A stretch of 64,000 nt of DNA from Nakazawaea peltata (Eukaryota > Ascomycota > Pichiomycetes > Alaninales > Pachysolenaceae). The stretch covers positions 128,222-192,221 of the forward strand of contig BCGQ01000005.1 in the NCBI GenBank assembly GCA_001599355.1, read 5' to 3'. Made by a program: the position numbers and the translations under genes. The notes beneath the pieces were generated by a model. That model ran no database searches and was not told where the DNA came from. It saw only the letters and a program-made list of their open reading frames with translations. Below are positions 1 to 64,000 of the stretch, piece after piece. Position 1 is the first letter of the stretch, and each line of letters opens with the position of its first letter.

Positions 1-157
1 CAATTAGGAAATCAGAAGGGGGTTACTTAGGAGCAAACTCGGTAAAGATTAGAAGATGTCGAATTGGGATATGTAAATATACTTTAATTCTCGCTTGGAA
101 TTGCTCTAGATTACGTTCAGTAGATCACTTACCCCTTCTATCTCCCCTTACTTTGTA

Positions 158-168
158 GATAAGATAAG
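158..168 (+). promoter_or_regulatory. Tandem GATAAG sites upstream of the permease
   Basis: Two overlapping GATAAG words (158-163 and 163-168) lie about 90 bases before the permease start. GATAAG is the binding core of nitrogen-catabolite GATA factors (Gln3/Gat1/Dal80 in S. cerevisiae), and DAL genes there use closely spaced pairs. That this pair acts the same way is an inference. The rest of bases 1-254 shows no gene. Confidence 0.5.
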
Positions 169-254
169 AGCATGCATGCTCCCTCAGTATATAATATAAG
201 ACTGCTGTCAATTTCTAAAGTAGAGTTAGTACCAAGATCAACCAACTATCAACA

Positions 255-2126: not shown

Positions 2127-3716
2127 ATGTTGAGAGCTGTGAGAAGGTTGTCAACGCTCCAATTGAGCACTACCACGACCAATTATCCAAAGGCGCACCC
2201 AGTTGGGGTTGCTCCGTACTTAACTCCGTATTTCTTTGAGAATCAATTTTTGAAATCGGAATCTTCAGAATGGTTTGATGTGATCGATCCACTGACTCTG
2301 CAAGTGGTGTCAAAGGTACCTCAATCCACAGACAAGGAGTTGGATGATCTGATTCTGTCGCTGGACCTGCTGTTCCATGGGATGTGGAAACAAACGTCTG
2401 TCATTAGACGTCAACAGATCAGCTTCAAATTGGTTCTGTTGTTGAGAGAGAACTGGGACCGGATAGCAGCCAATATTGTCTTGGAGCAAGGTAAGACTTT
2501 TGCCGACCTGAAGGGGGATGTCTTGAGGGGTTTGCAAGTGCTGGAACTGGCTTGTGGAGTACCACAAGATACCGCGGGATCAGTGGTAGAAGTGGCCACT
2601 GATATGGAAACCAAGATGATAAGAGAACCATTGGGTGTAGTTGCATCTATTTGTCCTTTCAATTTCCCTGCTATGATCCCATTATGGACTTTGCCATTGG
2701 TCATTGCTACAGGTAATACCACTGTAATGAAGCCAAGTGAACGTACACCTGGGCTGCTGATGATCATTGCAGAGTTATGTGAGAAACTGGGTGTCCCACC
2801 AGGGGTAGTCAATATTGTCCATGGAAAGCTGCCTACCGTCAACAAATTGATCACCGATGAACGTGTTAAAGCTGTTACCTTTGTGGGGGGAGACAATGCC
2901 GGAAAGTATATCTATGAGACTGCTGCAAAACATGGTAAGAGAGTCCAATGTAACATGGGACTGAAGAACCATATGGTTGTAATGCCAGATGCCGACAAAA
3001 ATTCGTTCGTCAAGCTGTTGAATGGTGCTTGTTTTGGTGCTCTGGGTCAAAGATGTATGCTGATCTCGGTGTTGGTTTGTGTTGGAGAATCTAAAAAATG
3101 GATCTCTGATGTTGTTGCTGATGCCAAGAGCTTGAACGTTGGCTCAGGGTTCGATCCTGAGTCTCACTTGGGTCCTTTGATTAGTAAAGAAGCTTTAGAA
3201 AAAACCCATCAAATTATCCAGGAAAGTATTGATATGGGGGCCGTTTGTGATCTCGATGGTAGGGGTTATACTCCGCTGGGAGGAGCCCAATTTGAGAATG
3301 GATATTTCTTAGGTCCTACTCTCTTGTCAGGTGTCACACCATCTATGCCTTGTTATGAGAAGGAGATTTTTGCCCCGGTTCTTAGTGTTTTATGTGTTGA
3401 TACTTTAGATGAGCTGATTGAGTTAGTTAACAAAAACAAATATGGAAATGGAACATCAATTTTCACCAAATCTGGTCTGCTGCTGCAAAAATTCACCAAG
3501 CAGATCGACGTTGGTCAAGTAGGTGTTAATGTACCAATTCCTGTCCCATTGCCAATGTTCTCTTTTACTGGATCTAGAGCTTCGTTCTTGGGAGATTTGA
3601 ATTTCTATGGTAAGGCAGGGTTGACATTTTTGACTAAACCAAAGACGATAACTGCATTGTGGAAACAAGATCAACTGGAGGTTGGAAATTCTATGTCGAT
3701 GCCTACTCAACAGTAA
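2127..3716 (+). CDS. Methylmalonate-semialdehyde dehydrogenase (acylating), mitochondrial
   Basis: A 529-residue ALDH6-family enzyme. It oxidises methylmalonate or malonate semialdehyde with CoA and NAD to propionyl-CoA or acetyl-CoA in valine, pyrimidine and beta-alanine breakdown. The start at 2127 gives an Arg/Ser/Thr-rich mitochondrial presequence ([18 protein letters not shown]). Family motifs include [25 protein letters not shown], the catalytic Cys at residue 310 in GQRCM, EIFAPVL and the [19 protein letters not shown] block near the C-terminus. CTG codons at 2961, 3042 and 3060 fall where the family has Ala (NMGAKNH, GAAGQRCMA), supporting CUG as Ala. The standard S. cerevisiae gene set lacks this enzyme, but many other yeasts and filamentous fungi keep it. 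Confidence 0.95.
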
Positions 3717-4124: not shown

Positions 4125-6560
4125 ATGGTGAAGTCTCAAAAAGCAACAGCTGCTTCTGGCGGTCAAAGAAAGAGAAGAGCTGACCCAGTGGAGGAAAATG
4201 AGCCAGAAATTGTAGAGTCAGGCTCGGGATCTGAAGCTGAGTCCGATGAGGAAATCGATTTCAAGAGCATTATCAATGATGAGGATGATTCCGAGGACGA
4301 TGATGATCTGGAATTCGAGAGCGCTGAAGAGGAAGCTGAAGAAGGATCTGAAGCTGATGCCGAGGAAGAGGAAGAGGAAGAAGACTCGGATGCTGAATTC
4401 AACAGACTTCTTGCAGAGGAAGAAGAAGAAGAGACTGAGGAAAGTGAAGATGAACCTCAAGATTCTGCCAATATCCAGATCAAATCCGACGTTATTAACA
4501 CCAAATATTCCGATGGTAAACCAAGAACTATCAGACCAGAAATTAACCCTGTTTATGACAGTGATGACAGTGACCAAGAAGGGTTCGGAAATACTATTGG
4601 AAATATCCCTCTTAGTGCATACGATGAGATGCCTCATATTGGTTATGATATCAACGGTAAGAGAATCATGAGACCTCTGAGTGGTAGTCTGTTGGATCAA
4701 TTGTTGGAATCTATTGACTTACCTGAAGGTTGGACCGGTTTGTTGGATCAAAACACCGGAGCTTCTTTGAATTTGACCGAGGAAGAATTGGAATTGATCA
4801 ACAAGATTCAAAAACAAGAACAAACCGATGAATCTACGAACCCATATGAACCTACAATTGAATGGTTCACCAGTAAAGTGGAGATCATGCCACTTACCCT
4901 GGTTCCAGAACCTAAGAGACGTTTTGTCCCATCTAAGCATGAAGCCAAGAGAATTATGAAGATCGTCAGACTGATCAGAGAAGGTAGAATTGTTCCACCA
5001 GATCAACTGCGTGAATTGAAGGAAGAAGAGGAAAAGAATTACGATATCTGGGCCGATAACAAGGATGAAACCGAAGACCATATCATGACTTTAAGAGCTC
5101 CTAAATTACCACCTCCAACTAATGAAGAGAGTTATAATCCACCACTGGAATATTTGTTGGATGACAAGGAACTTGAGGAACATTTACAACTGGATCCACA
5201 AGATCGTGAACGTAACTTCATTCCTCAGAAGTACTCGGCTTTGAGAAAGGTTCCTCTGTACCTGGAGAATATCCGTGAGAGATTTGAACGTTGTCTTGAT
5301 TTGTATTTGGCTCCAAGAGTCCGCAAGAACAAATTGAACATCGATCCAGAGTCTTTGATCCCAGAATTGCCATCTCCAAAGGATTTGAGACCATTCCCAA
5401 TTCATTGTTCTACTATTTATGAAGGTCATAAGGGAAAGATTAGAACTCTTTCGATCGACCCATCTGGACTTTGGTTGGCCACTGGTAGTGACGATGGTAC
5501 TGTCAGAGTCTGGGAAATCTTAACTGGTAGAGAAGTTTACAAATTGAGTCTTTACGATCCACTGGAGAATGAAGATGATCATATTGAAGATTTAGAATGG
5601 AACCCTCTGAGTGGAATCGGTTTATTACTGGTCACTTGTGGTGAAAATATCTACTTAGTAGTACCTCCACTGGTCTTTGGTTATGAGGTTGAAAACGCCA
5701 GCAGATTAAAGGTTGAAAATGGTTATGGTTACGATGTTCACGGTCAAAACAAGAAGGCTGGTGATATCAAGAAGGTTGGAGCTGATGAAAATGCCGACTC
5801 TGATTCTGATGATGAGGCTGAACTGGCTGCCACAATCAAGAAAGAAGTCTCGAAATGGCTCAAACCATCCAAAGAACAATCTCAAAATGGTATTGCTTTA
5901 ATTGTTCAATGTAAAAAATCTTTGAAGAAGTTGTCCTGGCACAGAAAGGGAGACTATTTCGTTACAGTTTCCCCAGAATCTTCAAGTACGTCTGTCTTGA
6001 TTCACCAATTATCTAAACATGCATCTCAATCACCTTTCAAGAAGGCCAAGGGTCTTATCATGGACCTGAAATTCCATCCATTCAAGCCTCAATTATTCGT
6101 ATGTTCTCAAAGATACATCAGAATCTACGACTTGTCTCAACAGATGCTCATCAAGAAATTGATGCCAGGTGCTCGTTGGTTGTCCACCATTGATATTCAT
6201 CCTCGTGGAGATAACTTAGTTCTGTCCTCGTTCGACAAGAGAGTTCTTTGGCATGATTTGGATCTTAGTAACACCCCATACAAAACTTTAAGATACCATG
6301 AGAAGCTGGTAAGAAGTATCCAATTCCACAAGGGAGGATTACCTCTTTTCTCTTCTCTGTCTGACGATGGTTCTATCCATGTGTTCCATGGAATGGTTTA
6401 CGATGACTTGATGACCAATCCTTTGTTGGTGCCATTGAAGAAGTTGACTGGTCATAAAATCACTTCTCAATTGGGGGTATTAGATTTAGTATGGCACCCA
6501 CGTGAACTGTGGTTATTCAGTGCCGGTGCTGATAATACTGCCAGATTGTGGACTACATGA
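4125..6560 (+). CDS. ERB1: ERB1/BOP1, 60S ribosome biogenesis WD-repeat protein
   Basis: An 811-residue nucleolar protein of the Nop7-Erb1-Ytm1 (PeBoW) complex, needed for 27S pre-rRNA processing. Residues about 20-115 form a long Glu/Asp/Ser acidic tract. The BOP1 N-terminal domain follows (roughly 140-425, including [10 protein letters not shown] and the IPRRR-like [14 protein letters not shown] segment). WD40 repeats fill 428-811, starting at [17 protein letters not shown] and ending with [13 protein letters not shown]. The length matches the yeast orthologue (807). In the last repeat a CTG gives Glu-Ala-Trp with CUG as Ala, as in orthologues. It is preceded by a GTCGTGCA/CCAAT promoter element. 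Confidence 0.96.
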
Positions 6561-6703
6561 GTATAGATTTAATAGCATTATTGTAAGATATCCTTAGTAG
6601 CACTCTCACCTTACTCTCCATACCTCATGGCTTCTCGTACTATCCTTCTCCCTACCTCTCCCTCCCTACCTTAGCACCCTTAGCGCAGAGTATCCCCTTT
6701 GTA

Positions 6704-6711
6704 GTCGTGCG
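6704..6711 (+). promoter_or_regulatory. GTCGTGCG element, complex I gene promoter
   Basis: GTCGTGCG preceded by ATCCCCTTTGTA and followed by CCCCAAT 8 bases on; 138 bases upstream of the ATG at 6849. It belongs to the recurring GTCGTG-type promoter element of this window. Confidence 0.35.
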
Positions 6712-6848: not shown

Positions 6849-7982
6849 ATGAAGCCATCTCTCACCACTCTTATGGGGAGATTCCCCCTCAAATCTGATA
6901 TCAATATCACCAAGACAGGTAAAGTGCTCACTGCAGTAGGTCAAGGTGGTCGTTCTTCCAGGACTGGTTATACTGCGACTGTTTTTGGATGTACTGGATT
7001 TCTTGGTAGATTGTTGACGCTGAAGTTGCTGAAACATGGTACTATCACAGTTTGTCCGTACCGTAATCCGACTCTGAAGAAGCAATTGAAGGTCAATGGA
7101 GACCTTGGTGTGGTCAATTTCGTGGAATTTGATATTAGAAACATGGAAAGTATCTATAACAGTGTGGCTCATTCTGATATTGTATTCAATTTGGTTGGAC
7201 TGGATTACAATTCCAAGAATTTCTCAATGGCTGATGTTAATATCGAGCTGACTAGACGTATTCTGCAACTGGCCAGTGATTGTAATGTTTCTCGTTTCAT
7301 TCAAGTCTCCACTTACAATGCTGATCCTCAAAGTGACTCTGTTTTCTATGCGACAAAGCTGATTGGTGAACAAGTTGTCAGGGAAATTATCCCAGATCTG
7401 ACTATTGTTAGACCTGGTCCAATGTATGGACGTAATTCTCCTTTCCTTAACAGATTATTAGAAACTCAAGTCCTCGGAACCAACAAAGTTTTCAATCAAC
7501 AAGTATATCCTCTGCATGGTATTCAAGTTCTGGAACTGTTGGAGAAGATTGGTTATGATGACACCACAATGGGACAAACTTTCGAACTCAATGGAACTGA
7601 AAAATGGCGTAAATCCGAACTTCGTGAAATGATCAAACATATTATCCATATCGGTCAAAAGGGTTATTACCCTGCTCTGGCTGGTTGGTATATTCCTCTT
7701 CCATTGTCAGTGATCAAGGCTGCTGCATGGTGGGGTGAAACATTCTCCTCTCAACAAAGATTCAACCTTGATCAATTGACTCGTGTTTTCATCGATCATG
7801 AGTTGACTTACGATCTGAAAGGGTTCAAAGATTTGGGAATGGTTCCAGACGAATTGAACGAGTACTTGTACCGTTACGTAAAGCCACATATTTCTCATGA
7901 TTCCCAAGCTTTGAATAGAACTGTTTATTCGAAGGAGGACATTGATAAATTGAGAATCTATGTCAATTCTCCTGCTGTCTAA
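6849..7982 (+). CDS. NADH:ubiquinone oxidoreductase 39-kDa subunit (NDUFA9/NUEM), mitochondrial
   Basis: A 377-residue accessory subunit of respiratory complex I, an atypical short-chain dehydrogenase fold that binds NADPH. The N-terminal 35 residues are basic and hydroxylated (presequence). The Rossmann signature TVFGCTGFLGRLL follows at about 44-56, then PYRNP, the VNIELTRRI/QVSTYNAD block and IVRPGPMYGRNSPFLN. Length and motifs match NDUFA9 and the fungal 40-kDa subunit. Its presence implies a proton-pumping complex I, which S. cerevisiae lacks but Pachysolen-type, Pichia-type and Candida yeasts have. The ATG is the first in frame. The 3' flank contains a TTTA-rich microsatellite. Confidence 0.94.
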   Translation: MKPSLTTLMGRFPLKSDINITKTGKVLTAVGQGGRSSRTGYTATVFGCTGFLGRLLTLKLLKHGTITVCPYRNPTLKKQLKVNGDLGVVNFVEFDIRNMESIYNSVAHSDIVFNLVGLDYNSKNFSMADVNIELTRRILQLASDCNVSRFIQVSTYNADPQSDSVFYATKLIGEQVVREIIPDLTIVRPGPMYGRNSPFLNRLLETQVLGTNKVFNQQVYPLHGIQVLELLEKIGYDDTTMGQTFELNGTEKWRKSELREMIKHIIHIGQKGYYPALAGWYIPLPLSVIKAAAWWGETFSSQQRFNLDQLTRVFIDHELTYDLKGFKDLGMVPDELNEYLYRYVKPHISHDSQALNRTVYSKEDIDKLRIYVNSPAV

Positions 7983-8003
7983 AGAGTGACAGAAGTGACC
8001 ATA

Positions 8004-10423: not shown

Positions 10424-11350
10424 ATGTTCAGATTAACCACTCCTGTTAAGTCTGTTCTCAGACAACAAGCTAGAAGTGCCAGCACTAACAGTACCGCCGG
10501 CGCTAATGAAGTCAACCCATTATTGAAGAAGTTCATTGTCGGTGGTGTTGCTGCTACTGGTTTGACTGCCTCTTACCTGTTGTACATGGACACCCACAGT
10601 GCTGAGGCCATGACCGCTGCTGAGCACGGTTTGCACCCACCTGAATTCGGTTGGGAACACAACGGTATGTTGGACACTTTCAACCACGCTTCTATTAGAA
10701 GAGGTTTCCAAGTTTATAGAGAGGTTTGTGCTCTGTGTCACTCTTTGGACAGAGTCGCCTGGAGAACACTTGTTGGTGTTTCCCATACCAACTCTGAAGT
10801 CAGAGCTATGGCTGAAGAATTCGAATATGATGATGAACCAGATGACCAAGGTAACCCAAGAAAGAGACCAGGTAAATTGGCCGACTACATTCCAGGTCCA
10901 TATGCCAATGAACAAGCTGCCAGAGCTGCTAACCAAGGTGCTCTTCCACCAGATTTATCTTTGATTGTCAAGGCTAGACACGGTGCTTGTGACTACATCT
11001 TCAGTATCTTGACTGGTTACCCAGACGAACCACCAGCCGGTGTTGTCTTGCCTCCAGGATCTAACTACAACCCTTACTTCCCAGGTGGATCCATTGCTAT
11101 GGGTAGAGTCTTGTTCGACGGTTTGGTCGAATATGAGGATGGTACCGAGCTGACCACCTCTCAAATGGCTAAGGATGTTTCCGTCTTCTTGAACTGGGCT
11201 TCCGAACCAGAGCACGATGAGAGAAAGAGATTGGGTTTGAAGGCTGTCATTGTTACTTCCTCTTTGTACTTGTTATCCGTTTGGGTAAAGAAATTCAAGT
11301 GGGCTGCTATCAAGAACAGAAAGATCGTCTTCCACCCACCAAAGAAATAA
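10424..11350 (+). CDS. CYT1: Cytochrome c1, heme protein of complex III
   Basis: A 308-residue catalytic subunit of the ubiquinol-cytochrome c reductase, located on the outer face of the inner mitochondrial membrane. It has a bipartite presequence: a basic N-terminus, then a hydrophobic sorting stretch (about 35-56). The mature start region AEAMTAAEHGLHPPEFGW is near-identical to other yeasts. The heme motif at residues 102-106 is Cys-Ala-[CTG]-Cys-His, which becomes CAACH, exactly the yeast sequence, only if CUG is Ala. DGTE-[CTG]-TTSQM likewise matches DGTPATTSQM. The DYIPGPY, PPDLS and NYNPYFPGG blocks are intact, and a C-terminal anchor (about 272-290) is followed by a basic tail. Length equals that of S. 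cerevisiae Cyt1 (309). Confidence 0.98.
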   Translation: MFRLTTPVKSVLRQQARSASTNSTAGANEVNPLLKKFIVGGVAATGLTASYLLYMDTHSAEAMTAAEHGLHPPEFGWEHNGMLDTFNHASIRRGFQVYREVCALCHSLDRVAWRTLVGVSHTNSEVRAMAEEFEYDDEPDDQGNPRKRPGKLADYIPGPYANEQAARAANQGALPPDLSLIVKARHGACDYIFSILTGYPDEPPAGVVLPPGSNYNPYFPGGSIAMGRVLFDGLVEYEDGTELTTSQMAKDVSVFLNWASEPEHDERKRLGLKAVIVTSSLYLLSVWVKKFKWAAIKNRKIVFHPPKK

Positions 11351-17118: not shown

Positions 17119-20100
17119 ATGGATTTGATAGCCATCTTGAAAGACCCGGAACAGTTCCTGATCCATCACGCGGTCATCCGTGAACAAGTCTTGGAGTTAG
17201 TGGAACAGAAGGAGTCCGAGGTCAATAATTTAAATAATGAATTAATCACGTCCAAGAACGCCAATAAACTGTTTCAAAAACTGTTGAACGAGATAGGTAC
17301 CGTGGTCATTAGTGTGCTGATGGGAGACTTATCGAAGAAGGTTCAAATTCATGAGGTGGAGAGTGACCCGGAGATTTTGAAGGTGAAGATCACCATCAAC
17401 ACCATGATGGACCAATTACAAACTTTTGCCAATGAAGTTACTAAGGTTGCCACCGAGGTGGCTCACGGTGAGTTGGGAGGTCAGCTGAAAAATGACGGCA
17501 CCGTGGGAATCTGGCGCTCTTTGACCGACAACGTCAACATCATGGCGCTCAATTTGACCAACCAAGTGCGTGAAATCGCCGACGTTACCAGAGCCGTTCT
17601 GAGCGGTGATTTGTCTAGGAAAATCAATGTCCACGCGCAGGGAGAGATCTTGGAGTTGCAAAAAACCATTAACACCATGGTGGACCAGTTGAGAATGTTT
17701 GCTTTTGAGGTCACCAGAGTCAGTAGAGAGGTCGGTGTCTTGGGATTATTGGGAGGTCAAGCTAAGATCAATGGAGTCGAAGGTATTTGGAAAGAATTGA
17801 CCGATAATGTCAATGCCATGGCTGCCAATTTGACCCAACAAGTGCGTAATATCGCCAACGTTACCACTGCGGTGCTGCGTGGTGATTTATCTAAGAAGGT
17901 TACTGCCGATTGTAAAGGTGAGATTTTGGATTTGAAATTGACCATCAACCAGATGGTGGACCGATTACAGACGTTTGCCGAAGAAGTCACTCAAGTGGCT
18001 AGAGAAACTGGTGTGTTTGGTAGATTGGGTGGAGAGCTGATTGTGCAAGATGTCGAAGGTGCTTGGAAAGAAGTCACCGAGAATGTAAACCTTATGGCTG
18101 CCAATTTGACCAACCAAGTGCGTTCTATCGCTACTGTTACCACAGCCGTTCTGCACGGTGATTTATCCCAGAAGATTGACGTCGACCTGCAAGGTGAGAT
18201 CTTACAATTGAAGAATACCATCAATAAAATGGTGGATTCGTTACAGGTGTTTGCCAAGGAAGTGACTAAAGTTGCCAGAGAAACCGGTGTCGAAGGTAAA
18301 TTGGGTGTTCAAGCCAACGTTAAAGATGTAGATGGTGCTTGGAAACTGGTTACCGAGAATGTTAACACCATGGCTACCAATTTGACTTATCAAGTTCGTC
18401 TGTTTGCCCAAATTACTGCTGCTGCCACCGATGGTGATTTCACAAGATTCATCACGGTTGAACTGTCCGGTGAAATGGACGCCTTGAAGACAAAGATTAA
18501 CCAGATGGTTTTGAATTTGAGAGAATCCATTCAAAGAAACACTCTGGCCAGAGAAGCTGCCGAGTTACTGAACAGTGCCAAATCCGAATTCTTAGCTAAT
18601 ATGTCGCATGAAATTAGAACCCCGATGAACGGTATCATTGGTATGACTCAATTGACTTTAGACACCGAGTTGACCCAGTACCAACGTGAGATGTTGAGTA
18701 TTGTACACAACTTGCTGAACTCTTTATTGACTATTATTGATGATATATTGGATATTTCCAAGATTGAGGCCAACAGAATGACTGTTGAGCAGATTGATTT
18801 CAGTTTAAGAGGTACTGTGTTTGGTGCTTTGAAAACATTGGCTGTCAAGCTGATCGAGAAACAATTGGACTTGGTTTATCAGCTGGATAACTCTTTCCCA
18901 GATAATTTAGTTGGTGATTCTTTCAGATTAAGACAAGTCATTTTGAACTTGGCCGGAAATGCCATCAAATTCACCACCAAGGGTAAAGTCACTGTCAGTG
19001 TTAAGAAATCAGGCAAAGTTTGTGCCAATTCCGACAAGTTACTTTTGGAATTCTGTGTCAGTGACACTGGTATTGGTATCGAGAAGGACAAATTGGGCTT
19101 GATTTTCGACACCTTCTGTCAACTGGATGGTTCTACTACAAGAAAATTCGGTGGTACCGGTTTAGGTCTTTCGATTTCTAAACAATTGATCCAGTTAATG
19201 GGTGGTGAGATTTGGGTTCTGTCCAATTATGGTGAAGGTTCTCAATTCTACTTCACTATTCTGGTTTCCCCAGCTAAGATCGAGTTGTCTCGTCAATTAG
19301 AAGTATTGTTACCTTTCAAGGATCATCATCTGATGTTCATTTCTACTGAACACAATGACACAGGCTCTGAAATCATCAGACAAAACATCGAGAATTTACA
19401 ATTACAACCAACTGTCGTTCGCACAATCGATGAAGCAGACTTTGTCGAGCCTGTCATCTATGATATCATCATTGTCGACTCTTTACAAACTCTGAAACAA
19501 TTGAGAACTTTGCCTGAGATCAAGTACATTCCGCTAGTATTATTACATCCTTCCATTCCAGGTTTGAATATGAGATTATGTCTCGATTTAGGTATCACTT
19601 CATATGGTAATACCCCATGTTCGATCACCGACTTGCTGTCTATTTTGAAACCGGCTTTGGAATCCAGACTGGCCCCAACTAATGCCGATGGTTCGGTCTC
19701 GTTCAAGATCTTATTGGCCGAGGATAACTTGGTCAACCAGAAGTTGGCCGTACGTATTTTAGAGAAACATGGCCACTCTGTCGAAGTAGTTGAGAATGGT
19801 TTGGAGCTGTTTGAACTGATCAAGAAAGATAAATATGATGTGATCTTAATGGATGTTCAAATGCCTATCATGGGAGGTTTCGAGGCCACTCTGAAGATCA
19901 GAGAATGGGAGAAGAAGATCAACCCAGTCGATTCATTACTGTTCAGAACCCCAATTATCGCATTGACTGCTCACGCCATGTTGGGAGATAGAGAACGTTG
20001 TATGAAACTGCAGATGGATGAATATTTATCCAAACCTTTGAAGCCTACTTTATTGGTCCAAACTATTGCCAAGTGTATCCACAATGTGAACCAATTGAAG

Positions 20101-20550
20101 GAGTTGAGTAAGAGTAATCAGCATAATAACAAGAGAATATCCAAATTTGCAGCAACTGTCGATAGCAATGTTGGAGCATCATCTAATTTGCTGTCTCCTG
20201 CTATCGATGCTCAGAGTCCTCAAATTGAGTTACTTCAAGACGTTGTTATGGGAACAAATGGCTCAAGTAATGGGTCCAATACCAACATCCGCATGTCCAA
20301 TAACAACGAACATAAAGTGAGTGAACATATTTCTGATATTCATGGCGAAGATTACGGCAGAGATCTGGTAAGAAAGACTAATAGTGATGAAATGTTGAAA
20401 CAAATGAGAAGACCAGGTGGATATGGTAATAGAAGTAACACTACTGAGGGATTAGTTCCTACGTTATCAGACTTCGGGTCTTCTGATTCGATTCCTTTGG
20501 CCGCTACAGGTCCAGAGAAGAAGGCTAAACGTAAGTTAAGTAATGATTAG
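17119..20550 (+). CDS. NIK1: Group III hybrid histidine kinase (NIK1/HIK1 type)
   Basis: A 1143-residue cytosolic sensor kinase acting above the HOG MAP-kinase pathway in osmotic and cell-wall stress. Residues about 60-450 are tandem HAMP-type repeats (about 92 residues each, NVNxMAxNLTxQVRxIAxVTTAV pattern). Then come the H-box [13 protein letters not shown] (phospho-His 497), the N/G boxes ending [13 protein letters not shown], and a receiver domain with ILLAEDN and phospho-Asp 912 in LMDVQMP. The C-terminal 110 residues are low complexity. The start at 17119 is the first ATG and aligns with other Nik1 N-termini. At least eleven CTG codons (residues 67, 123, 161, 253, 345, 449, 476, 484, 533, 578 and 669) sit at Ala positions of C. 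albicans Nik1, or next to one at 449 (sequence as I remember it). No membrane segment is present. Confidence 0.97.
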
Positions 20551-42537: not shown

Positions 42538-42858
42538 ATGAAATTCTCTGCTATCACTTTATTGGCCATTCTTGGTTCTGTTGCTTTAGCTGCTCCTGCT
42601 GCTTCCCCTGATGCTGTCGCTGAACTGGAGGCTTGGTCTTGGATCAAGAGTAAAGTTGGTGAGCCTTTAGGTAAGAGAGATGCCAATGCTGAAGCAGAAG
42701 CTGATGCTCTTGCTTGGAGTTGGATTAAATCCAAGGTTGGTGAGCCTTTGGGTAAGAGAGATGCTTATGCTGATGCTGAGGCATATGCTGATGCTCAAGC
42801 TGATGCTGTTGCCTGGAGTTGGATTAAATCCAAGGTTGGTGAACCATTGCGTAAATAG
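42538..42858 (+). CDS. Alpha-factor mating pheromone precursor
   Basis: A 106-residue precursor with a signal peptide (MKFSAITLLAILGSVALAAPAA) and three copies of the 13-mer WSWIKSKVGEPLG at residues 33-45, 60-72 and 93-106 (the last ends EPLRK). Copies 1 and 2 end in a Lys-Arg (Kex2) site. Each spacer consists only of X-Ala or X-Pro dipeptides: SP-DA-VA-EA-EA, then six, then nine. Those are substrates for a Ste13-type dipeptidyl aminopeptidase. The first spacer keeps this register only if CTG at 42625 is Ala. There is no N-glycosylated pro-region and no Kex2 site before copy 1, unlike S. cerevisiae MF-alpha. Trp1, Trp3, Gly and Pro positions match alpha-factor-like pheromones of other yeasts. 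Confidence 0.93.
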   Translation: MKFSAITLLAILGSVALAAPAASPDAVAELEAWSWIKSKVGEPLGKRDANAEAEADALAWSWIKSKVGEPLGKRDAYADAEAYADAQADAVAWSWIKSKVGEPLRK

Positions 42859-46735: not shown

Positions 46736-48154
46736 ATGTCAAAACTTCAAAAAAGAGTAAATGAACTCGTTGCCGAGTTCGAGGTGTCCAAGGAAACCTT
46801 GGAAAAAGGTGTGGAATTGTTCATTGCTAACGCTAAGACTGGGTTAACTCCATCGGACGACGTCTATGGTTTGCCTATGATTCCTACTTATGTGACTAAC
46901 ATTCCAAATGGACGTGAAAAGGGAGTGTTGCTTGCTGCTGACTTGGGAGGAACTAATTTCAGGGTCTGTTCGGTCGAGTTGAAAGGTGACCATACTTTTG
47001 TCATTAAGCAAGAGAAGAATCCGATTCCTGTTGATTTGATGCACCTGGACACCTCTGATGAGTTGTTCGAGTACTTGGCTAAGAAAATTGGTCTGTTTGT
47101 TGAAGCTCATCATAGTGATATTCCTGATAAACTGAATTTACCCTTAGGTTTCACTTTCAGTTTCCCAGTTGATCAGACTTCTCTCAATTCTGGAACATTG
47201 CTTAGATGGACTAAAGGTTTCGACATTAAGGACACTGTAGGTAAGGATGTCGTTGCCTTGTTGCAAGGTAACTTGGATGAGCTTAAAATTCCTGTCAAGG
47301 TTGCTGCTTTGGCCAATGACACTGTAGGTACTTTGTTATCCAGATCGTACAGTGCTGGAGCCGTTGCTGGTGGTCAGCAAGGAAAGACCGTGATCGGTGC
47401 AATCTTCGGTACTGGTACAAACGGTGCTTATCTGGAGAAATTGGAGAATATTAAAAAATTGCCAGCCTCTGTTGTTGAGGAATTGAAACTGCAAGGTAAA
47501 ACTCATATGATCATCAACACCGAATGGGGATCCTTCGATAACCATTTACAATTGTTACCAACCACCAAGTACGATGTTGCCATTGATAAGGAGACTGCTA
47601 ATCCTGGGTTCCATATGTTTGAAAAGAGAGTCAGTGGTATGTTCTTGGGAGAGATTTTGAGAAATGTGATCTGTGATCTTTACAATGAGGGACTTGTATT
47701 GACTCAATTTGCTACATTCGATCGTTTACCTCATAGATTGAGACAGAACTGGCAATTGGACAGTGAGATTTTGTCGTATATTGAGGTTGATGATTCGACT
47801 GAATTGAAACTGAGTGAGATGGCTTTGTTGAACTCTCTTAGATTGCACACTACTGCCGAAGAGAGAGTTGCTATTCAACAATTGACCAGAGCCATTGCTA
47901 AGAGAGCTGCTTATTTGCTGCTGATTCCAATTGCTGGGTTATTGATTATGAGTGGAGAATTGGAAGGACATAACAAGGAAGTTGATATTGGAGTCGATGG
48001 ATCTTTAGTTGAGTTCTATCCTGGATTCAGAGCTATGTTGAGAGATGCTTTATCTATGACTAAGATTGGTAATCAAGGTGAAAGAAGAGTACATATCAAT
48101 ATTGCTAAGGATGGTAGTGGAGTTGGAGCAGCATTATGTGCATTGGATGGATAG
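46736..48154 (+). CDS. GLK1: Glucokinase
   Basis: A 472-residue hexokinase-fold glucokinase (glucose + ATP to glucose-6-phosphate, cytosol). ATP-binding ADLGGTNFRV (about 69-78), the sugar-binding LGFTFSFPVDQ...LLRWTKGF block (about 137-163), LANDTVGTLLSRSY, FGTGTNGAY, INTEWGSFD and C-terminal GVDGSLVEFYPGF are present. Two CTG codons (47918, 47921) give AAYLAAIPIAGL if read Ala, as in other glucokinases. The N-terminus lacks the Mig1-interaction motif typical of Hxk2, and length is close to S. cerevisiae Glk1 (500), so Glk1 is the best fit. Confidence 0.94.
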   Translation: MSKLQKRVNELVAEFEVSKETLEKGVELFIANAKTGLTPSDDVYGLPMIPTYVTNIPNGREKGVLLAADLGGTNFRVCSVELKGDHTFVIKQEKNPIPVDLMHLDTSDELFEYLAKKIGLFVEAHHSDIPDKLNLPLGFTFSFPVDQTSLNSGTLLRWTKGFDIKDTVGKDVVALLQGNLDELKIPVKVAALANDTVGTLLSRSYSAGAVAGGQQGKTVIGAIFGTGTNGAYLEKLENIKKLPASVVEELKLQGKTHMIINTEWGSFDNHLQLLPTTKYDVAIDKETANPGFHMFEKRVSGMFLGEILRNVICDLYNEGLVLTQFATFDRLPHRLRQNWQLDSEILSYIEVDDSTELKLSEMALLNSLRLHTTAEERVAIQQLTRAIAKRAAYLLLIPIAGLLIMSGELEGHNKEVDIGVDGSLVEFYPGFRAMLRDALSMTKIGNQGERRVHINIAKDGSGVGAALCALDG

Positions 48155-54919: not shown

Positions 54920-55871
54920 TAAGGAGATTAGGCTGGAAGGATTATGGGGTTACCTAACACACAGACAGGTTGCAAGTATCATTGGGTCACCACCTCACTA
55001 CAATATTCTATATGATCGTAATGTCAGTAGAGAGGAATGTCATTGGCATTGTGATGATGTAGTGTCACTGACATTGTGATGATGTGGTGTCACCGTGACA
55101 TTGTCATGCATCACTTGCATCTATATGATCTTCCCCTCTTTCTGAATTAGCCCCTTTACATATTGCGCGTTGGGATTATGTAATGCATAAATAAAGATAT
55201 GATAATTGATGGGTAGGCCAGTGCTGGCTGGACAGGATAGAGAGACTATTACTATGTACTTATATGACTGTGTACTATATCCTGTATATTATACTATACT
55301 CTATTATATTATACTATAGTATGTAATATATGCATTACTCTATACGATACTTACTCTATACGATACTTACTCTATACGATACTTACTCTATACGATACTT
55401 ACTCTATACGATACTTACTCTATACGGCTATGACTTAAGCTATTCACTATATAGTATATAGTAGTACTATACTAACTGCTATGATAACAATAATACTATG
55501 TACTATATAGATTGTATTACACTGTATGACTATGCTATGGCTATATAGTGTATAGTGTATAGTGTATAGTATATAGTGTATACTATATACTGTATATTAC
55601 TACTGTATATTACTACTGTATACTACTACTGTATACTATGTAGTATCCACATATACTGTCCACTATGTAGTGCCCACTATGTAGTGTCCCTATGAAGTGC
55701 CCACTATGAAGTGTCCCTATGTATGCGCCACATATACACCTCTGTTTCTGCACCTAGATAAGACTAAATATGTAAATTTCAATCTACACGACAATTAATT
55801 ACTAATTATTATTTATTAGCACAATGGATATATAAACCTCGATCAAAATATCAAGAATAAAAATAGTCTAT
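54920..55871. repeat. Repeat-rich convergent spacer
   Basis: A 952-base gap between two convergent genes with no gene. It holds a 16-base tandem repeat TTACTCTATACGATAC (five exact copies plus a partial, 55335-55430), a TATAGTG/TATACTATATAC-rich, hairpin-prone stretch at 55440-55640, and degenerate CCACTATGTAGTG units at 55640-55720. Likely to be slippage-prone. Confidence 0.8.
55335..55430. repeat. 16-base tandem repeat array
   Basis: Unit TTACTCTATACGATAC, copies at 55335, 55351, 55367, 55383 and 55399, then a truncated copy ending near 55427. Confidence 0.93.
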
Positions 55872-58574
55872 CTAAGAAGACTTCTCATGTTGAGTAGAAA
55901 CTCTTTGCATGGCATAGATGAAGTCCTCAATAGATCTTTGAGGCTTCTCCTCCTTTCTTGGCTTACCGTTCATGAATCTGTCGAAAGCCTCAGATTGAGA
56001 CATCAAGACATAGGCACCACCCATGACACAGAAGACACCGAAAGACCAAATCCAGACACGGACAACGGTAACAATGTCGTTCCAGTTTTGAGACCACCAT
56101 CCGAACAACAGGAAACAGGTAGCAATGATGTCGACAATGAAGACGGCACCAGACAATTGCCAAGATGGAATAGAAGACCAGAAAGCACCTTGAGCTCTGG
56201 TGATGAAAATCAACCAGTTCTCAGTCAACGAGATTTGCAAGAACAAAACACCGTCGACGGAACCAAAGTTTTGGATGATACCACCCTTACCCATGAACAT
56301 GGTGGTCAAGGTGATCCAAGTACCAACGGCCAAGATAACACCCAAGATAACAGACATACCCCATAATCTAGGCAAGTTCCACTTGACTGGTTGAGGGTCG
56401 TATGGAGCATTGTCGTAGGCAATGGCCAAGGTAGCAACATCGGCGAAAATGGCAATGAAGACAACCAAGTCAATGTTCAAAGAGTTGTTCAAGATAGCAA
56501 TCCACAAACCTAAGAAGATCTCCAAGTGCAAAGACAAGGCGATACGGTAGACAACGTAAGAGTACATTCTGTGGAAAATCTGTCTGGAGGTCTTCAAAGC
56601 ATCAATGATAGCAGATAAACCTGGAGCCAAGAAAACAATATCAGCAGCGGAACGGGCAGCATCGGTAGCACCTTCAACGGCAATACCAGTGTCGGCCTTC
56701 TTCAAAGATGGGGCATCGTTAACACCGTCACCAGTCATGGCAACCAAGTAACCTCTTTGTTGCAAGATCTCAACGACGTTGTACTTATGTTGAGGGAAAA
56801 CTTCGGCGAAACCATCGGCATTCTCAACGAAATCAGCAATTTCAGAACCAGCCATGTCTCCACCACCGGACAAACCTAATCTCTCAGCATTGTAGATGTT
56901 AGTACCCAAACCCAATTGACGACAAGTTTCCTTAGCAATACCAACGGCATCACCAGTCAACATCTTAACTCTCAAACCCAAGTGTCTAGCCTCGTGGACA
57001 GTCTTAGCAGTGTCATCTCTTGGAGGGTCCATACATGGCATGATACCCAAGATTTCCCAGTGACCTTCACCTCTCTTTCTAGCAACACCCAAAGATCTGA
57101 AACCTCTGGAAGCAAACTCGGCAACCTTGTTCTCGTAGTTGTCGTGGATGTCTTCTGGGATTGGGTGGTCTTCTTCAACAGTCTTCAAAACGAACAATGG
57201 AGCACCTTTAACACAGATGATTCTCTCACCTTCTGGGGATTCAACGTAAGCAGTAACCTTCTTAGAAACAGGGTCGAAAGGTTGGAACTCAATGACCTTG
57301 TATTTGGTCAAAGCATCCTTAGCTCTTGGGTAGGAGATCAAAGATTTCAAGAAAGCCTTGTCAATAGCATCAAGACCCTTCTTCTTTCTGGAAGCAGCCA
57401 AACAAGCAGTCAACATCAAATCGTCAGCCTCAACACCTTCGACAGTGTATGGCTCGTGCAAGGACAACTTGTTCTTGGTCAAGGTACCAGTCTTATCAGA
57501 ACACAAAATTTCAACACCGGCCAACGATTCGATAGCACTCAACTTTTGGACAATAGCTTGCTTCTTGGCCAAGTAAGCGGCACCGACAGCCATGGTAGTT
57601 GTAACGACAGCTGGCAAACCAACTGGGACACCGACAATGGTGATAGCCAAAGTGTATCTCAAGATTCTAACAATCTTGTTGGATCTGTAGAACGAAGCAG
57701 TCCAGACAACCAACAAGGTAAGAATAACCAAAACCAACAAGATAGTACCGATACCGTTCAAGACTTCGGTGAAATGACCAGAACCGGCAGCAGCCTTGTT
57801 AACCAAGGCAGCAGCACGACCAACGAAAGTGTTGTCACCGGTGGAGGTAACAATCATGTAAGCTTCACCTCTCTTGACGGTGGAAGAAGAGTAACAAGCA
57901 TCAGCATGTCTCTTGTCAACGGCCAAAGATTCACCAGTAATAGCAGATTGATCAACTTGCAAAAGACAGTCCTCGGTAACGATTCTACCATCGGCTGGGA
58001 TGACAACACCATCCTCCAATTGCAAAATATCACCTGGAACAATATCAACAGCACCAACTTCGACCAATTGACCGTCTCTGATAACGTTAGCAGAGTTAGC
58101 CAAGGTCTTCTTCAATTCATCAACGATAGAACCAGCTTGGAATTCTTGAATGAAACCGACAGCAGCGTTCAATAACAATAAACCACAGATAACACCGAAA
58201 TCAACCCAATCTTCCAAACCGGCAGCCAAAATAGCAGCGGCTTCCATGACGAATTGAATTGGACCAATGAAGAACATACAGAACTTGATGATCAAGTTTT
58301 CCTTGTCTTCAGCCATTTGGTTCAAACCGTACTTCTTTCTTCTTCTGGCGACATCGTCAGAAGTCAAACCGTACTTAGGGTCGGTTTGCAACAACTCCTC
58401 TGGGACTTGGACGAAAGAACCAGCGTCAGAGTCACTTGGTAAGTCGTCGTCGTCACCTTCACCACCATGACCTTTGTCGGATTGCAAGTCCAAGATCAAT
58501 TGGTCAATGTCATCTTCTTCATCATCAGATTCAGCAGCTGGAATCTTTTCCTTAGTTGGCTCAGTTGCGGACAT
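55872..58574 (-). CDS. PMA1: Plasma-membrane H+-ATPase
   Basis: A 900-residue P3A-type proton pump that sets plasma-membrane potential and cytosolic pH. The acidic N-terminus (about 1-65) precedes TM1-2; the TGES actuator motif is in [12 protein letters not shown], and the DKTGTLT loop has phospho-Asp 360. Further motifs are [43 protein letters not shown] and C-terminal helices. The regulatory tail ends [21 protein letters not shown], with Ser/Thr sites known to be phosphorylated in Pma1. Length matches yeast Pma1 (918). Codon bias is extreme. A 5' UTR intron is likely (see next entry). Upstream is a very long gene-poor region. Confidence 0.98.
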
Positions 58575-59116
58575 CTATTTGAAAAAGTTAGTAAACGCAT
58601 TCATGAAAAAATTCCACCAGATTACCGAGAAAAACGGTCGGCGTTTGCTCGTATAGAACAAAACCTTAAAGATTTCCCTTTTGGGAAGGTCGTGTAAAAT
58701 TACCAATTTCCCACACTTTATTAGGAAAAATTTTTCTCCCGCCTTTTCCGAAAAATTGGTAATCCCACGCACTCCCTTTAGGGAAAATTTCGCTCGAAAC
58801 AGAAACAGAAAAACCAAAACAAGATGCACGCACACTGTTACCCACCTTCCTCATCTTGAACCAATGAATGGCTTGGAAATTTTCATGAATGAAAAAAGCA
58901 GCCATCGCTGGGGAAGGTTTTGAACGGTGGTGGAATTGAGACAAATTAAAAGCCATTAAGTGCAGTGGGTTCCACAACACTATTCTAGCTCATAATCGCA
59001 TGAGCTGACTGCTCATTTCTCAATCCCTTAGCCTCTTGTAAAGCTCACTGTCCTATCGCCGCTTTATCTCTCTGTAAAATACTTAAAGTGCGCAAAAAGC
59101 ACTTAATAAAACTTAC
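58575..59116 (-). other. Likely 5' UTR intron of PMA1
   Basis: On the minus strand a TACTAAC branch site (58587-58593 on +) is followed after 9 bases by an AAATAG acceptor that abuts the PMA1 ATG. The only good GTAAGT donor seen upstream is at 59111-59116, giving an intron of about 542 bases entirely before the coding region. The three consensus elements and the position make it likely; the donor choice is the weakest part. If true, the GTCGTGTA at 58689-58696 is intronic. Confidence 0.6.
58689..58696 (+). promoter_or_regulatory. GTCGTGTA element upstream of PMA1
   Basis: GTCGTGTA followed by AAATTACCAATTTCCC, 115 bases before the PMA1 ATG. It is read on +, opposite to the gene, and may sit inside the 5' UTR intron. 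Confidence 0.3.
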
Positions 59117-62100
59117 CTTTCTCAACTTTTGAAATATACAATCAACTCTTCCCTAATTATAAGGTATCAATGTCAATATGAATCAACTTCTAATGTAATT
59201 GAAGAAGAAGGGATTGGATATATTAAAGGTTAGAAATAAAACAAAAAAAGGAATTCTAAAGGGAATTCAGGTTTGAAGGCTTCCTGAATACTTATATAGT
59301 TTTTTGGGAGAATACTAATTTTTGGGTTTGGTCGACCACAACTTTTTGTTGCAGCATAGAGAGGGAAATTCAATATAATAATGACAAGGAAAATGCAGAC
59401 TGCTTGAGATAATAGATGAACTATTTGGGAAAACTGCACACAAAACTTGAGGGATAGGAACAAATTTGAGAGATTTTTTTCAACCGAATATGTTCATATT
59501 TTCAATTGTTTTTGTTTTTAATTAACTCTTTTCTGTCTTTATTTGTCTGATGGGAAAAAAATAACTCAAGCAACGCAGAATATGTGAAAAAAATATGTGG
59601 TTGCCCATGCCTCGCCTGCCTTTTTTTCTCGCTCTCTAAGGCCTTTTTGAGTATTTCTTTCAGGCCGCCTTTTCCTCCCCCTCTTGATACTATTCACTGG
59701 TGGAGCTAACTTCCGATCCTTTTTTTCTAATCGCAGGATTTATGTTTCTCGGCTCTTTCTTTTTGACCTCGAAATACCTGAATTTAATACTATAATGCCT
59801 TCAGCGGATTTCAATTCTTAGGAATAGTTCTAGCTTATTCCTCTCACAATCTTCCTTCATCCCTCTCTGCTCAACTATAAGCCTATCGCCAAAAGGCTTA
59901 TCTGAACCAACTGCGTTATTTCCAATACCCTAATGCCCGGCCCCTCCACCGATTCTTACTCCCCCGTCTTCCCCCTCGTCGGACTTCATGCTTCGACTGC
60001 GTAGCTCGGTATCTCGAGAAATAGAGCGGATAGAATTTGGGAATTTCTTTTTTTTACTTACCTACTTACTATCTTTCTCGCTACTAAATAGAAGCTTCGT
60101 CGAGGCATTTTATCAGGCGGAGGGGCACAAACTTCAATCCTCAGAACACTTGGTTTAGTCTGCCTAAGAGACTCTGTACATTGAACTACCCGCTTCCGCT
60201 GGCTACTACAGGCGGCAGAACCTCCGCACTTGTCACTGTTGCTGCCTAAACTGGTTTTGGTTCCTGTTAATTAATCTTCCCAATTAGGTAATAAATATAC
60301 AGTTTTAATCCAATTAATTAACTAAAAGGGTAACTCTATTACCCTTCCAGAACAACAAAATTCAGACTAGGCAACCTCGAGAACTGGAGGGTCTACAAGA
60401 TTAGATAGGAGAACGTAATTCCAAAAGAAGATTCGACAGGAAATTAAGGATTGAGACCCCATACATCTCTCCCCATCATTTTCGGTTATTCGTAAAGTAT
60501 ATGTGCCGTTGTCTCTGCTGATGATCTTTTCCTGGGCCTACACAATCCCCCGACCTAGTTACTTAGTTTGCGTCATATCCATAATCCCCTCAAGCCCAAC
60601 GCTCACTAATTGTGAGAGGAAAAAATTTTCGCATTTCTAATCAGGAACCACTCGGATTCGATTATCCAATTTTCAGACTTTTCGAGACTTTTTTCTTTTA
60701 TCAAGGGCACAAAAATAACGTAATTTTTAAATCTGATATTCAGAATATGCCCCAACCATCGGCGATAAACTCAAGCTGCTAGAAAACGGGTAAATTTAGG
60801 AATTTTACGCATATCACAAAAAATAGAGCGGTTAGGAAAAGGAGCTAATGCTTAGATAATGTAAGGCTAACAAAACGTCGAGTCTTGTTATCGAGACAAA
60901 AAGAAACGAGTTAAGGTGGGTGAAAAAAAGCCCGACTCTTGAAACTACCTTGGAATGTTAGAGAGAGCGATGGGAAATCACGATACCAGTAGATAGGTTC
61001 ATCTAAGCTTCAGGATTAGCCCAATGACTTGGAGAAGTCTCTTTGGATCAACTAATATCGGAAACATTGGCATAATCTTGCCGTTGTAGCCAAGATTTTT
61101 CAATATGCTCCCCAGTAAATAAGGTAGGGAGCCTCGGTACGATAATTATTGTTAAGGGATTTATTGTACTTAGGGCATGTAGAGAAAGTAGAGAATCTCA
61201 AATGTATGTAGAAAGGGGAAGTGAGAGTTTTTCCCTTGACTGACAAGCAAAATGGACTCTCGTCGCCAGAGGTCTTGTGTTCTTGGTCCACATTTTGCGA
61301 GATTTAATTCAAATAAGCTTTCCGTCATTTCTTTTTACAATTGCTAGGGTCCGACGACTTAATTGTGGGCGTCTCGGGTGGATGAGAAGGAGATAGGCTC
61401 TACGGTGTCGGGCTTAAACAAAAAGAGTAAGAATATCGAGAATAAACGTCGACAAATTGCCGAAGTGAAGAAAAAAAAGTCTCAAGACGGTACACTTAGG
61501 ATTTTTAACAACCGATGGAATTTTTTGTTTTTTGTCTTTTCCTGCGCGGTACAACTTTTTGACTATGGGGGATTGGGAGTTAAGATGGAAGAATGGAAGT
61601 AAGTAGCGCTCGAATACCGTTTATAGGCTATTGTTCCTCGGATTGCTAGATCTCTCTCACTCTCTTTGTTGGAGTCCATCGGATGTGTGTCGTATGTAGA
61701 ACAGAAAATTTTTCCAGTGTGTAGTTACCGAATATGGAAGTATCTCCAGATAGCGAGTGTTCCGAAACGGGGCAAATCAGACTTTTTTATTCAAAAGTCT
61801 GTTATCAGAATCCGAGAGAAGGAAAATAAAGTTCGTCGAAACCGAAATATTTGGAATAGAAAAAGAAGGAAGCGGGTTTCCATCATTTTCCCAAATTTTC
61901 GGTTTTCTTTGTCCTGCGATTGGGCGAAGATCTGAAAAAAAAGACTCGGATTGTAGTAGTAACCTTGGGCCAGTTAAGCTCATTATGCCCTGTAGCGGGT
62001 GAAGCTTTTTTTTTTTCAAAGAAGGGCCATCAGGCAACCTCTACTAGTCTTCAAGGTCAGGCACTTTTTGCATAGCTGCAGTAGTCCAGATTTCTCATTG

Positions 62101-62779
62101 GTCTACGTATCGTTATCCGGCCTTGTATGCCCCTCTCCATTGCTCACTCACCCACCTATTTCACCTCTTCTCATCTCAGATCTCCGTCCGCTAACGCACT
62201 CCCACCCACCACTTAGCTTTTTTCCAATTTGAATACTCCAGCCGCGCGGAGAAGATTATGTAATTCTACATGAAATCTCTGGTCGACACTGGGAAAGATG
62301 TACACAAGAGGGGAGTTTTGGCCCGCTTGCAACAAAGGGCAGCTATGTCTGGAATAAGAAACAATTCCTTGGAGCTCTTATTTAGTCCCAATTTCTTTTT
62401 TTTGGTAATGCCTCGACAAGAACCCCCCACAATTTATTCTTGGTATTCTGCAAAGAAATGTATGGCAATAAGAGGGCATGAAAACGTGCTCCATCTAATT
62501 ATCCGTAGTCTCGGCATCATGTAATTTGTTCCAAAACAGTACCTTCTCACGAGACCAATTCAATTCACTTCCCACTAAACCACCTGTCTTTCAAACCAAC
62601 CTTTCACAGTCACAGCTACACTTTATTTCGTAATTTGCTCCCTCTCTCGTATTAACATCATAACACCACCTCGCTTTCCAGGGATGGGACTTAATCCTGC
62701 AGAGACTAGGAACCTTAAGTAGTGAACCGAAGATCTAAGGGGTGGAACGAATCGGAAGCTGTGATTTTTCCATAGCATA
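59117..62779. other. Long gene-poor region upstream of PMA1 and of the 5-phosphatase
   Basis: With the candidate intron this is 4.2 kb with no supported gene: the largest ORFs are below 90 codons, many with non-ATG starts or low-complexity content, and none shows a family motif. It is AT-rich with pyrimidine blocks, an Mcm1-like TTCCCAATTAGGTAA at 60277-60291 and many short A/T tracts. Long upstream regulatory DNA is known for PMA1 genes of yeasts; unseen non-coding RNA, or a lineage-specific small gene, cannot be excluded. Confidence 0.5.
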
Positions 62780-64000
62780 ATGCAATTGGAGACCCTGAAG
62801 TATATACTTCATTACAAACCGGTGCCATCTGCTTCGCTGCTGATATCCTCACCGCTGTACACCTTAATACTAGAAGGTAAAGGTGGATCTGGGGGCCGCG
62901 TAGTGCCGGTAATACGATTAGAGATGAGCCAGGAGGGGCATTTGATATTGAATAATCAAGATTTGGGTCAAGTTGAGGACCTGGACCAAGCTGGGGAATT
63001 AGTGAGTCGCTGGAAGATGAGAGAGGCCGGGAATCTCCCTCAATCCTCACCCAATTCGGCTGATATTAAGAGCGATGAGGCCATTCCGGTCACGGCAATT
63101 GACTCGGGATCAGGGAATTGGGGGATGAGACAACGTCTTCTGCTGCATACTTCTCAATTCGAGAACACTCGCCCCCTCAATATAAGAATTATCACTTGGA
63201 ATCTACACGGTGATGCCATTTACGAAAATGAAGATGAGGATATCGATCTGCTTATTAATGTGGAAAGAGAAGGTGGTAGTATTCTGGATTTGTATTTTGT
63301 GTGTTTTCAAGAGACCATCCCATTGAACGCAAAGAACTTGTCTTCGTCTCCGGAGCGGGTTCTGGGGTGGGAGAAACGTATTTTGGCCTGTTTGCCCAAA
63401 GATTATATAAAATTGAACTCTAATAGACTTTTAGGGCTAACAACCCTCCTGTTTGGATCGCTGGAACTTTCCAAGCAGGTGGGCTCTATGTCCACCAGCA
63501 CCATTGGCACCGGTCTTATGGGACTTTGGGCCAACAAAGGTGCCATTGTAATGAACTTAAATATTGGAGGAGATGAGATGAGTGGTATTGCAGGCTTAGA
63601 TTTGCAATTATTCAACTGTCATCTCCTGTCTGGTCATGGTAAGGAGATGTTGGACCGTCGTAGACGTGAATTGAGTGATATTCAGCGTAAATTCCCCATC
63701 ATCGGCAGTAGTCTGTTAGTAGGAGAAATCCCAGACGATAACGATTTAGTTGAATATGAGGAAGAATCTGATGATGAGAGCTTTTTTGCCTCTGAATCTG
63801 AGCCAGAAATCACTAAAATTCAGGATAAAGTACAAGATATGTCCCTTGATAACAGTCCAGATTCATTGGGGATCACTTTCTTTGCCGGTGACTTGAATTA
63901 CAGAGTCTTTATGGATCGTTCAGAGATCGAAAATTGCCTTGAATTATCCGATTACAATCTGTTATTAAAACAAGATGGATTAACTCAGGAAAAAACAGCC
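62780..64000 (+). CDS. Inositol polyphosphate 5-phosphatase, partial (runs off the window)
   Basis: 407 codons, no stop before the window end, so the C-terminus is missing. The frame opens after a stop at 62762-62764, and the first ATG is at 62780. An N-terminal region of about 130 residues is unrecognised. From about 133 the 5-phosphatase catalytic core follows: IRIITWNLHG, VCFQET, a STIGTGLMGLWANKGAIVMNL block, CHL-[CTG]-SGHG (CHLASG when CUG is Ala, matching CHLAAG), and FFAGDLNYRV near the right edge. It lacks an upstream Sac1 domain of the synaptojanin-like Inp51-53 type, so is closer to Inp54-like or other type II enzymes. It removes the 5-phosphate from PI(4,5)P2 or related lipids. Confidence 0.9.
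   Translation, partial: MQLETLKYILHYKPVPSASLLISSPLYTLILEGKGGSGGRVVPVIRLEMSQEGHLILNNQDLGQVEDLDQAGELVSRWKMREAGNLPQSSPNSADIKSDEAIPVTAIDSGSGNWGMRQRLLLHTSQFENTRPLNIRIITWNLHGDAIYENEDEDIDLLINVEREGGSILDLYFVCFQETIPLNAKNLSSSPERVLGWEKRILACLPKDYIKLNSNRLLGLTTLLFGSLELSKQVGSMSTSTIGTGLMGLWANKGAIVMNLNIGGDEMSGIAGLDLQLFNCHLLSGHGKEMLDRRRRELSDIQRKFPIIGSSLLVGEIPDDNDLVEYEEESDDESFFASESEPEITKIQDKVQDMSLDNSPDSLGITFFAGDLNYRVFMDRSEIENCLELSDYNLLLKQDGLTQEKTA

Follow-up and report, generated by a model that had tools for sequence, protein, structure and literature searches.

Reassignment of CUG, which stands for leucine in nearly all organisms, to alanine (Ala) was reported in 2016 from Pachysolen tannophilus, in a clade that also contains Nakazawaea and Peterozyma (PMC5951914); NCBI taxonomy assigns the three genera to the order Alaninales. 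The same paper describes, for the Ala-clade yeasts, a novel CAG tRNA that arose by anticodon mutation in a pre-existing gene, and an alanyl-tRNA synthetase (AlaRS) without a requirement for anticodon bases (PMC5951914). The same codon was altered by the same proposed anticodon route, via a synthetase indifferent to it, in the CUG-Ser1 yeasts (the Candida albicans group) and the CUG-Ser2 yeasts (Ascoidea and Saccharomycopsis). These two groups place serine (Ser) at CUG, whereas Ala is found in the 64,000-nucleotide stretch of DNA analysed here, which is referred to as the window. We put at roughly 97% the probability that the window belongs to the nuclear genome of a budding yeast with the cytosolic code of NCBI table 26, in which CUG encodes Ala, with the other well-sampled codons retaining their standard meanings. 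Table 26, the Pachysolen tannophilus nuclear code, resembles that of the window in reading CTG as Ala and CTT, CTC and CTA as leucine (Leu; 18, 8 and 3 sites), in budding-yeast genes. The code is therefore one described before, which the window matches at the level of the clade, rather than a new reassignment; an earlier note on this DNA, which had claimed that CUG is read as Ala throughout the window, itself stated that the change was in print.

The Ala identity of CTG is shown by two tests on alignments and by the pattern of one processing site, and the claim of the earlier note is borne out by comparisons with solved structures in the PDB, by scoring of all sense codons and by Pfam scores, together with the spacer of an alpha-factor-like pheromone precursor. 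The analysis used 26 of 36 open reading frames (ORFs), after overlapping ones had been removed by hand, although at least one of those retained (28090-28746) may be spurious. These contain 335 CTG in 14,147 codons. The case rests on statistics over many sites, with no single site decisive.

The first comparison was blind to the meaning of CTG. CTG was rendered as X in the translations of nine window proteins, eight of which (all except an ACC-deaminase-like enzyme; ACC, 1-aminocyclopropane-1-carboxylate) were searched against PDB sequences, with one relative scored per protein. In the alignments of CYT1, glucokinase and the P4-ATPase, only blocks containing a CTG were used. The counts cover 20 of the 30 CTG sites in the P4-ATPase and 13 of the 20 in GatB (the aligned part of 4n0h_B); one of the resulting 128 sites faced a gap. 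The remaining 127 face Ala 66 times, Ser 14 times, Gly seven times, Thr six times and Leu three times, upholding the assertion that CTG falls on family Ala positions in at least eight proteins. In the same blocks, Ala lies opposite 77 of 168 GCN codons, Leu opposite 242 of 368 other Leu codons, and Ser opposite 132 of 263 Ser codons. The Ala share facing CTG does not differ from that facing GCN (Fisher p = 0.35), and the log-likelihood of the residues facing CTG is -367.5 bits if they are Ala-like, -484.5 if Ser-like and -788.9 if Leu-like. In a mixture fit, the Ala-codon-like component accounts for 99.7% of CTG, the Leu-like one for 0.3% and the Ser-like one for 0%.

The second test scored all 61 sense codons for each of 20 residues, using bacterial relatives aligned to window proteins in which CTG was given as X. 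It shares with Codetta (PMC8629427) the principle that conserved columns vote on the meaning of a codon; Codetta uses Pfam profiles, whereas this test used five proteins, bacterial relatives only and a home-made score. Of the 462 yeast species analysed with Codetta, 453 have CUG calls in agreement with the known distribution (PMC8629427). The relatives numbered 80 for the methylmalonate-semialdehyde dehydrogenase-like protein (MMSDH), 37 for GatB, 30 for CYT1, 22 for the ACC-deaminase-like enzyme and 30 for a hybrid histidine kinase; loci L170-L177 (eight of 30 fetched together), which were weak matches, were left out. The coverage rule was passed by 70 of 89 CTG sites, over which Ala scored +98.1 bits, the next residue, Ser, -47.1 and Leu -126.9, ranking 12th of 20. 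Taken one at a time, all five proteins gave Ala as the best of the 20 residues, as did all five sets that left one protein out. The standard meaning was best for 54 of the 61 codons, including TTA, TTG, CTT, CTC and CTA, all best as Leu (61, 118, 18, 8 and 3 sites), leaving six misses besides CTG. A second reassigned codon was considered among these misses (AGC, CGC, CGG, GCG, TCA and TGC) and rejected as noise, as each has between 1 and 12 sites and wins by 0.1-6.5 bits, against 225 for CTG over Leu.

A relaxed coverage rule admitted 74 CTG sites. Ala is the commonest residue in 39 of the 74 CTG columns, compared with 70 of 112 GCN columns. Among columns in which one residue reaches at least 80%, those of CTG comprise 14 for Ala and none for Leu or Ser, and those of the other Leu codons comprise 37 for Leu (n = 213); such near-invariant Ala columns are similarly frequent for CTG (14/74) and GCN (29/112; p = 0.29). 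At MMSDH CTG sites 282 and 315 the relatives' columns are entirely Ala.

Pfam scores under three codes point the same way. With table 26, 26 proteins were scanned; with tables 12 (Ser) and 1 (Leu) the number was 25, as the protein of 30055-31308, which matches no family, was left out. One row was picked by hand per domain, giving 39, and 43 redundant rows were recounted apart. Summed over the 39 rows, Ala exceeds Ser by 97.4 bits and Leu by 283.3; where the codes differ (35 rows), Ala is best in 25, Ser in seven and Leu in one, with two ties. The 34 of 43 redundant rows present under all three codes (nine being absent under some code) give Ala a lead of 70.9 bits over Ser and 211.2 over Leu, with Ala best in 21, Ser in nine and Leu in four.

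The alpha-factor-like precursor provides an internal check. This putative pheromone gene (42538-42858, + strand), recognised by inspection, has a signal-like start, KR processing sites, X-Ala dipeptides and a repeated W-x-W core, all hallmarks of such precursors, and its product is likely to be secreted. Its three cores are identical (WSWIKSKVGEPL), two of them being followed by GKR, and presumably resemble the S. cerevisiae alpha-factor peptide. The spacers contain 19 X-Ala dipeptides, 18 written with GCN and one with the only CTG of the gene (42625-42627); hence the pattern is intact if CTG is Ala, and broken once if it is Leu or Ser. Alpha-factor precursors share this layout, and contain Ste13 (EAEA) and Kex2 sites (PMC6265332). 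A Pfam scan of the precursor gave no relevant match, and the three core strings drawn from the WSWIKSKVGEPL repeats had no occurrence in the literature searched.

Several points weigh against this reading. Firstly, the bacterial relatives were retrieved using the Ala translation as the query, even though the scored alignments carried CTG as X. Secondly, about half of the CTG sites face a residue other than Ala in the PDB relatives, as GCN sites likewise do, and three face Leu. Thirdly, individual Pfam rows dissent: of the 35 informative ones, seven score highest with Ser (HAMP by 4.9 bits) and one with Leu (PhoLip_ATPase_N by 0.5), while the redundant rows include nine of 34 that favour Ser (TPR_8 by 4.7, WDR5 by 3.1) and four that favour Leu (NAD_binding_4 by 2.4). 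Fourthly, four CTG sites in the HAMP array of the histidine kinase (residues 356, 409, 427 and 448) correspond mostly to Val, Asp or Asn in relatives.

The alternative that fares best is that CUG is ambiguous, being read mainly as Ala, with some Leu or Ser inserted through competition between tRNAs or through mischarging. We regard this reading, which partly coincides with the preferred explanation, as improbable. Two kinds of CAG tRNA within one genome are on record for the CUG-Ser2 clade (PMC8629427, PMC5951914), and a slow or error-prone codon would also fit the avoidance of CTG in codon-biased genes described below. However, the mixture fit assigns only 0.3% of CTG to a Leu-like component and none to a Ser-like one, although sequence comparison is blind to misreading at a rate of a few per cent, and CTG occupies columns that are wholly Ala, such as the two in MMSDH. 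A uniform Ser meaning, as in CUG-Ser1 or CUG-Ser2 yeasts (table 12), is very improbable. It could claim the 14 of 127 CTG sites that face Ser in the PDB relatives, the Pfam rows in which Ser scores best (7/35 informative and 9/34 redundant) and the Ser of 4n0h_B at the GatB NR[x]N position, but GCN codons face Ser about equally often (21/168), Ser trails Ala by 117 bits in the PDB comparison, 145 in the all-codon test and 97.4 in Pfam, Ser does not reach 80% in any CTG column, and the X-Ala pattern of the pheromone spacer would be broken. The standard code, under which the Ala matches would arise by chance or misalignment, can be set aside as having almost no chance of being right, as the three of 127 sites facing Leu, and the one of 35 informative and four of 34 redundant Pfam rows that favour it, are outweighed by its rank of 12th among 20 residues for CTG, the absence of CTG columns in which Leu reaches 80% (a level attained in 37 of the 213 columns of other Leu codons) and a deficit of 283.3 bits relative to Ala over the Pfam rows.

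Reading CUG as Ala would follow from a short series of events, for which the literature on other genomes is the guide. The ancestral tRNA-Leu(CAG) would have been lost, and a tRNA-Ala gene would have acquired a CAG anticodon; because AlaRS does not need the anticodon, and is indifferent to it, the CAG tRNA would still be charged with Ala, placing this residue at CUG. ARAGORN and Rfam found no tRNA gene in the 64-kb window, hence no tRNA-Ala(CAG) was seen there.

The conserved motifs cited in the earlier note mostly align as it described (square brackets mark residues encoded by CTG). The MMSDH gene (2127-3716, + strand) has 25 CTG codons, of which those at 3042-3044 and 3060-3062 fall in GA[A]GQRCM[A] around the catalytic Cys, aligning to GAAGQRCMA in 8xxq_A; Ala occupies 13 of the 25 sites in that chain, and the Aldedh model scores 451.1 bits with CTG as Ala, 429.6 as Ser and 402.8 as Leu. 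In the cytochrome c1 (CYT1) gene (10424-11350, + strand), three CTG sites face Ala twice and Leu once in 6giq_D, and the codon at 10733-10735 supplies the second Ala of the heme motif, CA[x]CH aligning to CAACH. The CDC23 gene (31492-33210, + strand; 25 CTG, 14 facing Ala in 8a3t_D) has consecutive codons at 32671-32676 in H[AA]IESY, aligning to HAAIECY. Similarly, the glucokinase gene (46736-48154, + strand) has eight CTG codons, facing Ala at three sites and Leu or Ser at none in 6p4x_A, with YL[AA]IP (47918-47923) aligning to YLAAVP. The P4-ATPase gene, which is Dnf1/Dnf2-like (34905-39107, - strand; 30 CTG), carries SPDE[A]ALV (37188-37190) and SPSQK[A]AVV (36294-36296), which match SPDEAALV and SPSQKAAVV in Dnf1; against Dnf2, its 20 scored sites face Ala 11 times, Ser four times and Leu never. 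Two further genes were not among these motif examples: an ERB1/BOP1-like ribosome biogenesis gene (4125-6560, + strand), where the ERB1 chain 4u7a_A has Ala opposite ten of 20 CTG and a gap opposite one, and an NUEM/NDUFA9-like complex I subunit gene (6849-7982, + strand), where eight of 14 face Ala in 9iho_P. For the lunapark example, the Zn-ribbon model scores 65.0 bits with Ala, 63.0 with Ser and 63.1 with Leu.

Other examples require qualification. The statement that neither Leu nor Ser fits these sites was too strong: Ala wins over many sites, but Ser occupies the variable position of NR[x]NMP in 4n0h_B, and Dnf2 has SPDESALV. In the GatB gene (20895-22436, + strand; 20 CTG), the NR[A]NMP site (21423-21425) is Ala at a weighted frequency of 0.54 in bacteria, but Ser at 0.34; over 19 CTG sites of this protein, Ala is nevertheless the best of 20 residues (+20.7 bits, bacterial relatives), and GatB_N scores 298.3, 288.6 and 278.5 bits with Ala, Ser and Leu respectively. 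The Zn2Cys6 domain, in which an Ala was said to precede the first Cys, gives weak support (Zn_clus 31.6, 30.1 and 28.7 bits, in the same order). The FYVE domain likewise gives weak support (53.8, 53.4 and 51.7 bits), but here the nearest CTG lies three residues before the first Cys rather than adjoining it.

The hybrid histidine kinase gene (17119-20550, + strand), identified through Pfam with its start set by inspection, encodes a HAMP array, HisKA, HATPase and receiver domains and has 32 CTG codons. The earlier note counted 11 Ala sites; Ala is in fact commonest at 15 of the 32 in bacterial relatives, with five lacking an aligned relative, and six sites in the HAMP array are Ala in all seven aligned relatives. 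Separately, seven of 150 bacterial genomes contain arrays whose best match to this one has 62-69% identity, a strikingly close resemblance between a fungal and a bacterial sequence. The ACC-deaminase-like gene (33261-34286, - strand), a pyridoxal phosphate enzyme by its PALP match in Pfam, has nine CTG codons, over which Ala is best (+15.0 bits). Its product is 72% identical to a protein of one bacterial genome and 61-65% identical to those of five others, making a transfer between bacteria and yeast possible, in either direction, on the strength of this similarity.

Usage of the codon differs modestly from the published picture. Across 22 genes, the 1031 Ala codons comprise GCT 380, CTG 331, GCC 202, GCA 77 and GCG 41, placing CTG second and GCG last. 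Within Pfam stretches 33% of Ala codons are CTG, compared with 31% elsewhere (p = 0.55), the densities being 24.0 and 26.8 per 1000 codons. By contrast, PMC5951914 describes CUG in code-changed clades as relatively rare, tending to lie outside well-aligned sites; relative to that account, CTG is abundant here (331/1031) and not depleted in conserved domains. Such abundance may be ordinary within Alaninales. Of the codon-usage surveys, PMC6701816 excluded its five CUG-Ala genomes and PMC11540330 covers Alaninales.

Within the window, the share of CTG among Ala codons drops as that of TTG among Leu codons climbs (22 genes; Spearman -0.60, p = 0.003). The PMA1-like P-type ATPase gene (55872-58574, - strand; identified by Pfam), the most codon-biased, has one CTG against 89 GCN (1/90), and the share is also low in EGD2 (1/29) and CYT1 (3/35); codon-biased exceptions rich in CTG are the ACC-deaminase-like gene (9/33) and an OPT transporter (20/55). 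Because CTG is avoided in most strongly codon-biased genes, codon usage suggests that the tRNA reading CUG is scarce or minor. It is possible, though somewhat against the odds in our view, that CTG is now a mainstream Ala codon in this lineage: second to GCT, eight times as frequent as GCG, equally used inside and outside domains, close to GCN on near-invariant Ala columns, and almost absent from the most biased gene. Since CTG is more than one step from every GCN codon, it would have had to reach invariant Ala positions by way of Val, Pro or double steps. If this were the case, the lineage would test how a captured codon reinvades a proteome, contrary to the picture of CUG as rare and peripheral. 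Nuclear sense-codon reassignment is very rare, and heavy use at conserved sites makes good material for studying how reassigned codons spread. In practical terms, a standard-code translation is wrong at about one residue in 40 (334 CTG in 13,342 codons, 22 genes), including residues in the CYT1 heme-binding motif, beside the MMSDH catalytic Cys and at the pheromone processing site.

The attribution to the CUG-Ala yeasts (Pachysolen, Nakazawaea and Peterozyma) agrees with the earlier note at the level of the clade: the code matches and the gene content, including Flo11, Zn2Cys6 with Fungal_trans, Dnf-like and NUEM genes, appears to fit a budding yeast, from which a placement in Alaninales would follow. 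Pachysolen tannophilus has a guanine plus cytosine content of about 30%, and that of the window is 42%, which would argue against P. tannophilus itself.

The Flo11-domain protein (26794-27513, - strand) and its Ser-rich neighbour (24900-25727, - strand; no Pfam match) both contain long Ser repeats, and are possibly adjacent adhesin genes. Upstream of the PMA1-like gene, about 4 kb (58575-62779) contains no ORF longer than 111 amino acids, and a search for repeats or inverted arms that might mark a centromere found none of at least 25 bases there using 12-base seeds. Downstream of the same gene, 55286-55737 is dense in short tandem arrays, one of which repeats a 16-base unit perfectly over 5.8 copies.

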